From contig NZ_JADKYZ010000005.1 of NCBI RefSeq assembly GCF_015354245.1, positions 124,001 to 188,000 of the forward strand: 64,000 nucleotides of DNA, given 5' to 3'. This document shows positions 5,111-34,925 of this stretch, piece after piece. The notes below the pieces were generated by a model. The model saw only the letters and a program-made list of their open reading frames with translations. It did not search any database and was not told the DNA's origin. Source of the stretch: Diaphorobacter caeni. Its GTDB lineage: Bacteria; Pseudomonadota; Gammaproteobacteria; Burkholderiales; Burkholderiaceae_C. The stretch's first letter is position 1; every line of letters begins with the position of its first letter. The translations under genes were made by a program, and so were the position numbers.

Positions 5111-5204
5111 TGACGATACAGGCCCTCATGCGTTGTTGCAGAAGCCTTGCCGTACATGAGTACTGTCTGCGGCTTCGCGCCTAGCCTGAGGGCCTGTCTC
5201 GTCA
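5111..5204. repeat. Covarying hairpin element, copy 1 (94 bp)
   Basis: Outer arms TGACGATACAGGCCCTCA and TGAGGGCCTGTCTCGTCA pair over 18 bp with one mismatch. Inner arms GAAGCC/GGCTTC and apical GTAC-atga-GTAC follow, with the family-constant unpaired TTGCC and TGTCTGC between them. It lies between the aminotransferase and the dehydrogenase. The other copies are at 24424, 32744 and 34750. Confidence 0.85.
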
Positions 5205-24423: not shown

Positions 24424-24517
24424 CGCCAATACAGCCCCTCATGCGTCGTTGTTGAAGCCTTGCCGTACGAGAGTACTGTCTGCGGCTTCACGCCTGGCCT
24501 GAGGGGCTGTCTTGGCG
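24424..24517. repeat. Covarying hairpin element, copy 2 (94 bp)
   Basis: Outer arms CGCCAATACAGCCCCTCA and TGAGGGGCTGTCTTGGCG (18 bp, one mismatch at the same place as copy 1), inner arms TGAAGCC/GGCTTCA, apical GTAC-gaga-GTAC. It sits between the DUF350 and aminopropyltransferase genes. Apart from the element, 24389-24639 holds only a TTTTCTTTTTC pyrimidine tract upstream of the next start. Confidence 0.85.
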
Positions 24518-28063: not shown

Positions 28064-30697
28064 TCAGCGCTGCTCGCGGCGACGCAGCGTGAACGCGCCG
28101 ATCAGTGTGGACAGCATGAGCAGGGCCCAGGTGCCCAGGCTGGGCACGCTGTGCGCGGTGCCGGGTGTCGGCGTGGTCACGGTCGTCGCGCTCACCTGCA
28201 CGGTCACCATGGCGGTGGCGCAGACGGTGGGTGCGGAGGCGGCGCAGATTTGATACGGCACGTCATAGAAGCCCGACTTGACGCTGGAATCCACGGAGAT
28301 CGTGCCGTCCGGGTTGATCGTGAAGCCTGAGGGCGGTGCCTTCAGTGGATCGGGATGGTTGCTCACGATCACGTCGGTCTTGGGTACGGGGTTGCTGCTG
28401 CCGTTGAGCGTGTCGTTGCCGAGCACAGAAGTCGTGGACTGACCGGGCTGGATGGGCGTGACGCTGAAATCGTCATCGCTTGCCGAGATCGTGGGCGGGA
28501 CCGATGGGTTCACGGGTGTCGTGATCGGAGGCGTGGCAGGAGTCGACGTTCCCACTTTGATGTTGGCAACGGCCGTCGAGCAGGGGGTCAACGTGTTGGC
28601 CACGCAGATCTGATAGGGCACGCTGTAGTCGCCCGGCGTCACCGATGGGTCGACGGTGATCGTTCCATCGGGTTCGATGCTGAAGCCTGTGGGGGGCGCG
28701 ATGGTGGGATCGTTGCTCACGATGACTTCGGTCCCGGGCGTGGGATTGCCGGAGCTGTTGAGCGTGTCGTTGCCGAGCACCGATGGCGTGGACTTGCCCG
28801 GTGCAGTGGGCACGGTCGTGAAGTCGTCCGTGGTGGCGACGATGACCGGCGGGTTGGCGGGCACCGATGGGGCAACCTTGATCGTTACCACCGCGTCATC
28901 GCACAGCGTGGCATCGCTGACCGCGCAGATGCGGTAGGGCACGCTGTAGTCGCCTGACGGCACCGAAGGGTCGACGCTGATCGTGCCGTCCGGATTGATC
29001 AGGAAGCCAGTGGGCGGCGGGCTGCCCGGCTTGGCGCTCACGCTGACGTCGGACTGCGGCGAGGGGTTGCCCATGCCGTCGAGCGTGTCGTTGCCCAGCA
29101 CGGACGGCGTCTTGCCGCCCGGTGGCGTGGGGGCGGCCGAGAAGTCATCGTCCGTCGCATCGATCAGCGGCTGAACCAGAATGGTCACTGTCGTGGTCTT
29201 GCAGTTGGTGGAGTCGTCTTTGGCGCACACCTCGTAGGTCAGTGTATAGGTGCCGGGTGGAACGCCGGTGCCCACGGTGATGGTGCCGTCGGTCGGGTCC
29301 ATCTTGAAGTCGTCGGGGTCTGCGCCCACCAGTTTGACGGTGACCTTGCCGCCCACGTCGGAGGGGGTGAGCTGTGTGCCGTCGCTGCTGTCGTTGGTGA
29401 TCACGCTGGGTGTCTTGCCGCCCGGTGCGGTGGGCGTGGAGGTGTAGTCGTCGGGCGTGGCGACCAGCTCCGGCGTGCGAACGGGCGCGGGTGTGCTCGG
29501 GACCGTGATCGTGGCCTCGGCCGTGGCGCAGGTGGGCCAGGGCTTGGTTTCCGGTTTGATGCAGATTTCGTACGGCACCGAGTAGGTGCCTGCGGGCGTA
29601 CCGCTCGCGACGTCGATGTAGCCGTCCTCGCGCAGGGTCAGGCCGGTGACGGTCGTGGTCTGGCGAATGCTGGTGTTGCTGCTGGTGATGGGCGTGACCG
29701 TTCCATCGGCCTGCGTGAGCGTGTCGTTGGTACGTACGCTGTCGGAGGAAGACTCGCCCGCATGGATGGTCCAGGTGCCGTCATCGATGGCGGCGATGCT
29801 CGGGACTGCCGCGGTGGGGCAGGTCAGTGTCGACGCGCCTGCGGCAGGGCCGCTGAGCTCGACCAACTGGATGTCATCGACGTAGAAGTCATTGTCTGAA
29901 TTGGACTGCGCGAGGTTGCGCAGGGCGATGCTGTAGTTCGCATTGCTGGCGCAGGTCGCGGGTACGGTGAAGGTCAGTTCCTTGACGTGCCAGATCTTCG
30001 AGGCCAAATAGTTCGCGCCGATGCCGTTGCTGCCGAACGCATCCGATTTGGCGAGCAGTTCGCCGGTCGCGCCGTGCTGGACCTCGAAACGCGAAGACGC
30101 GCTGCTGTTGGTGATGTAGAAGGCCGCGCTCAGGCGGTAGGTCGCACCGGGAGTGAGGGAGGCGGCTCTTCGGTAGTACTCGTTCTGGATCTCGCCCGCA
30201 TTCACCGCGAGAACGGCACCGACTCCGGCGGTCGTGCCGCCATTCGTGCCGGTGTAATCCCCGCCGGGTGCCGCAGTGTTCTGGAACTGGTACCAGCCTT
30301 CATTGGCGAACGACGCGCCGGTCCTGAGGTTGTCCGGATTGCCCACGGCGTAGTAGCCGTTGTCGATGTTGTCGCGATTGAACTTGTCGAAGCTGTCGGT
30401 GCTGCCCAGGTTCGCGAACTTGTAGAACGTGCTGCCGTGACTGAATGTCTTGGACGTCGCCGGGAGATCGATAGCGGGCATGTACGCCTGCGGCACGTAG
30501 GGCGACGTGGTGCGTGTGGTGGAGGCGCCGAAGGTGTCGAGAAAAATGACGTTCTGCGCGAAGGCTGCGGGTGCTGCGGTGCAGGCGGCAATCGCGCAGG
30601 CGGCGATCAGGCGCCGCTTGTTTGCTGAGTGTGGCTGTTGATGGTTGTGCACGGTTGGATGCTCTGTCAGGCGGATGGGGGGCCCCATGAACTCCAT
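28064..30697 (-). CDS. Repetitive surface protein with IPTL-CTERM sorting signal
   Basis: An 877-residue exported protein. A signal peptide (KRRLIAACAIAACTAAPAAFA) ends at residue ~47 after a long polar leader; the exact start is unsure, with a second ATG at 30688. Residues 48-290 form a beta-rich domain. Five repeats of about 95 residues follow (302-399, 413-508, 514-608, 620-715, 739-835), each with a VxxND(T/S) turn and a C-terminal YxICA...C...VTIxV strand with a Cys pair. The C-terminus VPSLGTWALLMLSTLIG plus RRREQR (851-877) matches IPTL-CTERM exosortase-type sorting tags. Probably anchored at or released from the cell surface, as adhesin or matrix protein. No exosortase gene is in the window. 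Confidence 0.85.
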   Translation of the reverse strand: MEFMGPPIRLTEHPTVHNHQQPHSANKRRLIAACAIAACTAAPAAFAQNVIFLDTFGASTTRTTSPYVPQAYMPAIDLPATSKTFSHGSTFYKFANLGSTDSFDKFNRDNIDNGYYAVGNPDNLRTGASFANEGWYQFQNTAAPGGDYTGTNGGTTAGVGAVLAVNAGEIQNEYYRRAASLTPGATYRLSAAFYITNSSASSRFEVQHGATGELLAKSDAFGSNGIGANYLASKIWHVKELTFTVPATCASNANYSIALRNLAQSNSDNDFYVDDIQLVELSGPAAGASTLTCPTAAVPSIAAIDDGTWTIHAGESSSDSVRTNDTLTQADGTVTPITSSNTSIRQTTTVTGLTLREDGYIDVASGTPAGTYSVPYEICIKPETKPWPTCATAEATITVPSTPAPVRTPELVATPDDYTSTPTAPGGKTPSVITNDSSDGTQLTPSDVGGKVTVKLVGADPDDFKMDPTDGTITVGTGVPPGTYTLTYEVCAKDDSTNCKTTTVTILVQPLIDATDDDFSAAPTPPGGKTPSVLGNDTLDGMGNPSPQSDVSVSAKPGSPPPTGFLINPDGTISVDPSVPSGDYSVPYRICAVSDATLCDDAVVTIKVAPSVPANPPVIVATTDDFTTVPTAPGKSTPSVLGNDTLNSSGNPTPGTEVIVSNDPTIAPPTGFSIEPDGTITVDPSVTPGDYSVPYQICVANTLTPCSTAVANIKVGTSTPATPPITTPVNPSVPPTISASDDDFSVTPIQPGQSTTSVLGNDTLNGSSNPVPKTDVIVSNHPDPLKAPPSGFTINPDGTISVDSSVKSGFYDVPYQICAASAPTVCATAMVTVQVSATTVTTPTPGTAHSVPSLGTWALLMLSTLIGAFTLRRREQR

Positions 30698-32700: not shown

Positions 32701-32743
32701 GTTTTTACGCCGCCGGTGGCGGCGATGGTGGGTCGTTTGGGGG

Positions 32744-32836
32744 CGGCAATGCAGCCCCTCATGCTTTGTTGCAAAGCCTTGCCGTACAGGCGTACTGTCT
32801 GCGGCTTTGCGTCGCGCCTGAGGGGCCGCATTGCCG
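32744..32836. repeat. Covarying hairpin element, copy 3 (93 bp)
   Basis: Outer arms CGGCAATGCAGCCCCTCA and TGAGGGGCCGCATTGCCG (18 bp, one mismatch), inner arms GCAAAGCC/GGCTTTGC, apical GTAC-aggc-GTAC. The constant unpaired TTGCC and TGTCTGC are present. It sits after the esterase terminator and before the hemerythrin gene. Confidence 0.88.
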
Positions 32837-34205: not shown

Positions 34206-34723
34206 TGATGGACGGGGCTGTGCGCCCGCTGCAGCCTGATGATTTGCAGGGCTTGCTGCGGGTGCAGCGTGCCTGTTATGGCGATGCTTATGTCGAGGGC
34301 GCGGATGTGTTTTCGCGGCGCATCGCGAGCGCGGCCAATTGCTCGCTGGTGCTCAAAAGTGAAGGCGTTGTGTGTGCTTACCTCGCCGCTTATCGCAGCC
34401 GCATCGGCAAGGTCACGCCCCTGCATGGGGACTTTGATGCGGTGAGCGAGCCCGATACGCTGTATCTGCATGACATGGCCGTGCATCCCGAGTATGTGGG
34501 GCAGGGGCTGGCGCATCTTCTGCTGCTGCGCATGCGGGAGATCGCACGCGATGCGCAGCTGCCGTATTCCGGATTGGTGTCCGTGCAGGGTTCGCAGTTC
34601 TATTGGGCGCGGCAGGGATACGCGCTGCACCCCTTGACCGATCCTCAACAGCAGCAACGTCTCGCCAGCTACGGCGATGATGCGGTTTATATGCTTTGCG
34701 AGTTGGGTTTTACGAAGCCTTAG
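34205..34723 (+). CDS. GNAT-family N-acetyltransferase
   Basis: A 172-residue GNAT enzyme. The acetyl-CoA-binding motif A is DTLYLHDMAVHPEYVGQGLAHLLLLRMRE in consecutive pieces (VHPEYVGQGLAHLLL is the V-x-P-x-Y-x-G-x-G-x-A loop), with strand VCAYLAAYRS before it and the C-terminal FYWARQGYALHPL strand. The start overlaps the riboflavin synthase stop by one base, so the two are translationally coupled; a second ATG follows at 34208. Acceptor amine unknown. Confidence 0.87.
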   Translation: MMDGAVRPLQPDDLQGLLRVQRACYGDAYVEGADVFSRRIASAANCSLVLKSEGVVCAYLAAYRSRIGKVTPLHGDFDAVSEPDTLYLHDMAVHPEYVGQGLAHLLLLRMREIARDAQLPYSGLVSVQGSQFYWARQGYALHPLTDPQQQQRLASYGDDAVYMLCELGFTKP

Positions 34724-34749
34724 GCTTCGAGTAGCTGATCGTTTGAGGG

Positions 34750-34842
34750 CGGCAATACAGCCCTTGATACTTTGTTGCAGAGCCTTGCCGTATCGACATA
34801 CTGTCTGCGGCTCTGCGTCGCGTCTCAAGGGCTGTCTTGCCG
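34750..34842. repeat. Covarying hairpin element, copy 4 (93 bp)
   Basis: Outer arms CGGCAATACAGCCCTTGA and TCAAGGGCTGTCTTGCCG, inner arms GCAGAGCC/GGCTCTGC, apical GTAT-cgac-ATAC. Relative to the other copies the CTCA/TGAG pair has become TTGA/TCAA and GTAC/GTAC has become GTAT/ATAC, both preserving pairing. It lies between the convergent GNAT and acylase genes, 26 bp after the GNAT stop. Confidence 0.88.
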
Positions 34843-34925
34843 TTGTGGGGAGAGATTGAGCGCTCTGAACTCTTCGCTGTTCGTCGTTTGAAGAGACGCC
34901 CGATTGCGTAGAGTTCAGTGCTGTC

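Follow-up and report, generated by a model that had tools for sequence, protein, structure and literature searches.

Among the dispersed repeats of bacteria, REP and REPIN sequences are imperfect palindromes with fixed unpaired bases, and the Correia elements of Neisseria (CREE, NEMIS) alter gene expression. In PMC2649163, CREE are described as having inverted repeats and a target duplication, CREE contained in mRNA are substrates of RNase III, and the 26-bp Correia repeat is stated, as of 2009, to be known only from Neisseria. The literature searched names no enzyme that moves Correia elements, and a search of the literature for their fork orientation found none. The BRE (Hot et al. 2011, PMC3110155) are reported as repeats of ~90 bp that are usually intergenic in Comamonadaceae and Bordetella, that form some tandem arrays and have some copies within genes, and whose orientation in Bordetella does not follow the fork. 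A literature search combining the Correia element with Acidovorax returned this paper only, which names NEMIS among known repeats and describes BRE, and does not join the two. Finally, according to PMC3049150, the BOX, RUP and SPRITE sequences of the pneumococcus are small intergenic repeats over-represented in convergent gaps, 60.8-63.3% of them on the leading strand, which mirrors coding bias.

The repeat described here is present in four copies in the window (the whole stretch of 64,000 nucleotides that was analysed), of which copy 4 is the feature under study. Like REP and REPIN it is a dispersed imperfect palindrome with fixed unpaired bases, and most genomes of the genus carry a single-copy gene resembling a REP transposase; it differs in being several times longer than a REP and in not lying beside the transposase-like gene. 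With CREE/NEMIS it shares the hairpin layout and the core GCGTTGC..CTTGCCGTAC..GTACTGTCTGCGGC..CGCCTnG, along with an intergenic position, tens to more than 100 copies and a similar length to that of the short form of CREE (PMC2649163 and PMC5039591). CREE have TATAGTGGATTAA.. terminal repeats, whereas the Diaphorobacter repeats are without them, have outer stems that vary among copies, and, unlike CREE, have a small additional hairpin to the left as well as conserved sequence in the right flank. Moreover, they are fork-oriented in three relatives, and CREE are not in the gonococcus. In comparison with BOX, RUP and SPRITE, their bias is 74-79% in three genomes and, in the one genome tested for this (Diaphorobacter sp. 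HDW4B), is independent of gene direction.

The four hairpins and the extent of the unit

The first-pass annotation of the window had described four hairpins of 93-94 bp with particular stem variants; all four lie on the + strand at the positions in Table 1, and the variants are seen in their alignment. Each copy folds as one long hairpin with internal loops (z -5.6 to -7.3; 0/200 shuffles as good), and Rfam at gathering thresholds gave 0 matches in the 64-kb window. In the main hairpin, the core CTTGCCGTA..TACTGTCTGCG is fixed and the two stems that enclose it vary. The core bases that had been called unpaired are constant, but part of the core is able to pair; the extent first proposed holds for the hairpin, but conservation reaches further, taking in a T-rich stretch and, in many copies, a small hairpin to the left and ~40 bp to the right. 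A perfect 6-bp hairpin occurs in the left stretch of 116/214 copies, vs 8/214 in a control stretch. At 34710-34728, the last codons and stop of a 360-aa open frame (..TKP, TAG) fall inside the small left hairpin of copy 4, so that the 3' end of this coding sequence may come from the repeat.

Table 1. Parts of the repeat units located in the window
Feature	Position	Strand	Basis or remark
Main hairpin, copy 4 (feature under study)	34750..34842	+	location, alignment, fold, covariance model match
Main hairpin, copy 3	32744..32836	+	alignment, fold, covariance model match
Main hairpin, copy 2	24424..24517	+	alignment, fold, covariance model match
Main hairpin, copy 1	5111..5204	+	alignment, fold, covariance model match
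Small left hairpin, copy 4 (GAAGCC..GGCTTC)	34714..34728	+	overlaps stop codon of upstream 360-aa open frame
Small left hairpin, copy 3 (CGCCGCC..GGCGGCG)	32708..32724	+	other bases than copy 4, pairing kept
Conserved left border of copy 4 (TCGTTTG..)	34739..34749	+	
Right flank of copy 4, conserved (approximate outer end)	34843..34885	+	column conservation to ~+41 over 109 copies

Copy number and distribution

BLAST with copy 4 scored 40 places in the own genome (G000). The covariance-model search proposed in the first-pass annotation was run on this genome and on related Comamonadaceae with a model (R1) built from 39 copies of the own genome only; it returned 109 matches in that genome, of which 84 were counted as distinct copies, opposite-strand echoes and one weak match (C23:636198) being left out. 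The four copies first noticed are real, but the family is far bigger, and its description as dispersed hairpins of conserved structure with constant internal-loop bases was borne out in Comamonadaceae.

All six genus genomes examined have matches, the five relatives ranging from 3 to ~100 copies. In an initial R1 search, the own genome, G003 and G005 (Diaphorobacter sp. HDW4B) gave at least 63 matches apiece; there were 35 in G002, 24 in G004 and 3 in G001 (D. aerolatus KACC 16536). In G005, 129 R1 matches fell at 101 distinct places, of which 100 entered the master table and 99 the polarity test (a copy on the second replicon was omitted; echoes and C2:122679 were dropped). G003 had 109 R1 matches, of which 80 were used after removal of echoes and three weak matches, 30 of these being taken for gene context, and G002 had 35, of which 34 were used after removal of one echo.

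Among the 31 genomes reached through named loci, 23 have an R1 match at E<=0.001. These include 16/16 of Acidovorax/Paracidovorax (3-38 matches each) and 5/5 of Comamonas (9-30 each), counts that may include opposite-strand echoes, as well as D. aerolatus (3 matches) and 1/6 of Achromobacter with one match; at the same threshold 0/3 Pandoraea genomes gave a match. Of 60 relatives, the own genome included, 30 have a match, those outside the genus being weaker (best 1.3e-14). An intergenic repeat of ~90 bp in Comamonadaceae, as described for BRE, is thus found here, with 0/214 copies inside called genes. Carriage by phages or plasmids was considered and set aside: copy 4 had no match in the phage collection and a single one in the plasmid collection, to the 761-kb (761,384-bp) replicon of Diaphorobacter sp. 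HDW4B.

Two local arrangements were observed. In Comamonas sp. B21-038 (G080), four tandem copies at C1:3796901-3797675 are spaced 221 bp apart, approximately the size of the whole unit, and a head-to-head pair ~208 bp apart occupies the same site in two species (G000:C1:757575/757783 and G005:C1:3825991/3826198).

Relation to Correia elements

R1, although made from the own genome, finds 50 places in N. gonorrhoeae NZ_CP119140.1. Six of these were read and are Correia elements with TATAGTGGATTAA.. ends, and two of the six equal variants published in PMC5039591. Core alignment scores were 67-70 for four Correia-type cores, vs a shuffle maximum of 48 (20,000 shuffles each); the characteristic core sequence of CREE is present in the Diaphorobacter repeats, and across genera the stems change and the core largely stays. 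The 26-bp Correia terminal inverted repeats (TATAG[CT]GGATTAA.., from PMC2649163) are absent from the Diaphorobacter repeats, whose outer stems are CGGCAATACAG.. and the like, and variable. As judged from these sequences, the 2009 statement that the Correia repeat is confined to Neisseria is still true of the repeat ends, not of the core, and identification of the repeats as a hairpin family related to Correia elements is strongly supported. BRE, compared by description only, possibly belong to the same wider family.

In IMG/VR, one contig matched the core pattern of 20 fixed bases, with a spacer of 6 bases, and 11 contigs matched a pattern of slightly greater length, with spacers of 4-9; 6 of the 11 show, in our reading, Correia-type ends. 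Two phage-like IMG/VR contigs (L396 and L399; GC 0.64-0.65) carry near-identical hairpins with the same core and an entirely different outer stem, AAAAGCG../..CGTTTTT, and the L396 hairpin as query had no match in the phage collection. The 2.17-Mb N. gonorrhoeae records NZ_CP119140.1 and NZ_CP119142.1 are filed as plasmids and look like chromosomes.

Pairing, and DNA vs RNA

In the 39 own copies, 35 consensus pairs are present, 19 of them with changes on both sides. Of all cells 98.0% are paired; shuffling lowers this to 87.9% and sliding the partners to 29-45%. Two-sided changes affect 138 cells vs 35 in shuffles, and 0/500 shuffles reach any of five pairing measures; the genome-wide disruption of stems that would have spoken against a structured family is not seen in these copies. 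The compensatory changes reported in the first-pass annotation were compared with phylogenetic expectation in 207 of the 214 copies (after a length or score filter), with our own tree-based simulation in the manner of R-scape as the null. With 1000 simulations, 10 pairs were significant at E<0.05, of which 9 belong to the 33 pairs of the structure; a run of 60 simulations in which the tail was fitted conservatively gave 7 significant pairs, all in the structure, so that 24 to 26 of the 33 structure pairs are not significant singly. Paired changes exceed the expectation from relatedness.

If selection acted on one RNA strand, G-U would be expected to be better tolerated than A-C, which in the repeats is hardly the case. 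Stem departures outside three constant G-U pairs comprise 61 G-U and 62 A-C cells in the 207 copies (12 of the 61 in one pair), and events on the tree, over all pairs, comprise 210 two-sided changes vs 60 to G-U, 60 to A-C and 70 to other mismatches. By comparison, a control of tRNAs from fetched loci, small at 8 tRNAs only, gave 14 G-U vs 2 A-C (Fisher p 0.006). When the constant G-U pairs are included, same-site comparisons in three genome pairs give 71 G-U vs 50 A-C over all pairs, and returns to Watson-Crick on the tree number 32 from G-U and 14 from A-C. That the two kinds of departure are about equally rare argues against selection on one RNA strand alone and in favour of a DNA palindrome that copies exchange with one another. 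Selection at the RNA level, one of the two causes initially offered, is therefore not supported as the main one, and an RNA-only account was dropped as the leading view. On balance, the counts fit a palindrome maintained at the DNA level, or both strands having about equal weight. Where paired substitutions occur, DNA palindromes can be told from RNA structures simply by comparing how often G-U and A-C intermediates arise.

Same-site copies and presence/absence

For 46/84 own copies, G005 has a copy at the same site in the same orientation. Between these two genomes, 163 stem pairs changed on both sides vs 94 on one side (Watson-Crick vs another state; 42/46 site pairs), and between G005 and G003 (21 site pairs) the figures are 55 and 30. 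Unlike the other two genome pairs, G000 and G003 (25 site pairs) have more one-sided than two-sided changes (57 vs 31). Identity is 0.83 for same-site pairs vs 0.76 for other pairs; in only 4/42 cases does a copy resemble its same-site partner most closely (median rank 17.5 of 97), and whole stems are often swapped between same-site copies of two species. This suggests replacement by other copies, moving both arms together. Since exchange can carry both arms, paired changes alone are no proof of selection; the paired changes reported in the first-pass annotation are real, but do not by themselves prove the selection on structure read from them.

Copies without a same-site partner number 92 (38 own, 54 in G005), and for 31 of them both flanks were found in the other species. 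At 12 of the 31 sites the other species has a gap of <=60 bp, the difference being 179-264 bp (median 218), and at 19 the gap is >60 bp. At the ribE locus, D. aerolatus is without window copies 3 and 4. Inspection by eye of the empty sites compared between species, whose borders have diverged, revealed neither a target duplication nor an exact insertion end. Three cross-hits between G000 and G005 resembled inverted same-site partners, but two of them trace to the head-to-head pair and the third to a group of three close copies, and none is clearly independent.

Siting relative to genes

Genes were called with our own codon-score caller, which is not an annotation. In the element's frame, the genes flanking the 214 copies are ++ in 72 cases, -- in 69, +- in 63 and -+ in 10, and the copies are thus neutral to gene direction. 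Against a background of 224 gaps (160 tandem, 26 convergent, 38 divergent), sampled in G005 only for copies that come from three genomes, copies avoid divergent gaps (p 5e-5) and are over-represented in convergent ones (63/214 copies vs 26/224 gaps; p 5e-6). A role of the left T-rich stretch as a general terminator tract is not supported, the T fraction being 0.38 where the left gene points away vs 0.35 where it points towards the element. By eye, some copies lie directly after a terminator-like hairpin and T run. A transposon flanked by inverted copies was not found in the one cluster read, three close copies in G005: the two genes among them are, in our reading, dehydrogenase-like and a secreted binding protein.

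Orientation relative to the replication fork

Polarity was scored in closed genomes (the own genome is in 34 contigs), with dnaA as origin and its antipode as terminus. The + strand of the element reads with the leading strand, and hence in the sense of the lagging-strand template, in 73/99 copies of G005 (p 2.5e-6), 63/80 of G003 (p 2.3e-7) and 25/34 of G002 (p 0.009), three tests that are not independent, as these genomes share many sites. From 21 to 26% of copies in the three genomes run against the fork. GC skew agrees with the arms in 18/20 samples of G005 and 10/12 of G003. Fork orientation in three Diaphorobacter-group genomes is thus well supported, and the bias towards the lagging-strand template fits the single-stranded-DNA alternative of the first-pass annotation.

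Gene orientation was rejected as the cause in G005: copies there show no preference relative to gene direction, all four classes of flanking genes have the bias (++ 25/36, -- 22/31, +- 23/28, -+ 3/4), and copies exceed the co-orientation of the genes themselves (193/333; p 0.005). Polarity in G005 is alike for shared (38/49) and unshared (35/50) copies, which leaves room for selection after insertion. From origin to terminus, the quarters hold 37, 28, 20 and 14 copies in G005 and 15, 5, 2 and 2 in Comamonas sp. B21-038; neither G003 nor G002 has such a gradient.

Comamonas sp. B21-038 has no significant bias (16/24, p 0.15; 12/20 after cluster thinning), and N. gonorrhoeae NZ_CP119140.1 has none (25/50; the record starts at an open frame read as dnaA). 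The gonococcal result implies that polarity belongs to the Diaphorobacter lineage and not to the whole Correia-like family.

A candidate mover

One Y1_Tnp gene is present in 5/6 genus genomes, and that of the own genome matches the NCBIfam model of REP-associated transposases (NF047646) at 75.3 bits, the cut-off being 80. The first-pass annotation had anticipated a Y1 transposase gene flanked by the element; at 5/5 genus loci no element lies within ~1.5 kb on either side of the gene. Nor was any enzyme gene found beside the element among the flanks read. Y1_Tnp is present in 23/23 genomes with the element and 4/8 without it (31 genomes; Fisher p 0.002, confounded by phylogeny), and D. aerolatus has Y1 with 3 element matches. 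As a specific partner Y1 was rejected, being present in half of the element-free genomes, and G004 (83% complete) has 24 element matches and no Y1 match. The REP-transposase-like Y1 gene is a candidate mover only.

Interpretation and alternatives

Our preferred reading, to which we give a probability of about 0.45, is that the repeat is a non-autonomous mobile element, the Comamonadaceae branch of a hairpin family that includes Correia elements, moved as single-stranded DNA. The unit measures ~200 bp and is made up of a T-rich stretch, in many copies a small hairpin, the 93-nt main hairpin and the conserved right flank. Its + strand would fold as single-stranded DNA on the lagging-strand template, where an enzyme encoded elsewhere would recognise the fixed core and insert the element, and exchange or hairpin-templated repair between copies would keep the arms matched. 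A single-stranded-DNA mechanism would be consistent with the strand bias and the fixed internal-loop bases. The core shared with CREE, the fork polarity, the presence or absence of ~200-bp blocks and the keeping of pairing in two-base steps speak for this mobile palindrome. Against it stand the gonococcus without polarity, the weak figure in Comamonas (16/24), BRE that are not co-oriented, the absence of an enzyme gene beside the element, and the excess of one-sided stem changes between G000 and G003.

If the repeat were an RNA processing or stability hairpin in untranslated RNA, bound or cut by RNase III as reported for CREE (PMC2649163), its intergenic siting with convergent gaps favoured, its very stable fold and the slight G-U lean of the same-site comparisons would be accounted for; we regard this as unlikely, since neither strand is preferred relative to genes, the 207 copies have no wobble preference, unlike the small tRNA control, and the fork bias is left unexplained. 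The usual view of CREE, a cut-and-paste (DDE) miniature transposon with the outer stem as terminal inverted repeat, draws on the inverted repeats and target duplication of CREE (PMC2649163) and on block presence/absence between species, but outer stems differ among copies of one genome, conservation extends past both ends of the stem, the diverged sites show no target duplication to the eye, and there is a strand bias, all of which makes it distinctly improbable here.

A chromosome signal with polarity, which some protein would read at the fork or in segregation and whose orientation selection would preserve, could explain a gene-independent fork bias, a fixed core, the sharing of 46/84 sites with G005 and the thinning of copies from origin to terminus in G005 and Comamonas sp. 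B21-038; with copy numbers from 3 (D. aerolatus) to ~100 in one genus, 21-26% of copies reversed and no gradient in G003 or G002, we think it very unlikely. It is also possible that paired changes come mainly from copying (ectopic exchange, or a switch of template inside the hairpin) and that structure is not selected: many same-site copies do differ by whole stems, with partners of median rank 17.5 of 97, and two-sided changes exceed each one-sided intermediate kind. Copying alone, however, would not preserve a core that across genera stays largely fixed and asymmetric, and we hold this, too, to be very improbable.

A broader extension of the mobile-repeat reading, which we regard as doubtful, is that Correia elements, BRE and the Diaphorobacter repeats form a single family of hairpin replicators, of ancient origin in the betaproteobacteria, with a fixed internal-loop core and stems of any sequence. 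In the Diaphorobacter branch they would spread as single-stranded DNA into the template of the lagging strand, moved in trans by a single-copy REP-transposase-like protein or another unlinked enzyme. If this were true, the repeats would record fork direction, and the missing mover of Correia elements would be supplied. The Correia core in Comamonadaceae offers a many-copy system with closed genomes, outside pathogens, in which to seek the mover. Fork orientation, which one branch has and the gonococcus lacks, gives a direct clue to the mechanism.

Another repeat-bearing gene in the window

At 28064-30697 on the - strand, the window encodes a secreted-looking protein of 877 aa with internal repeats of ~148-254 nt (families D2 and D3). 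Its C-terminus resembles an IPTL-CTERM sorting signal.
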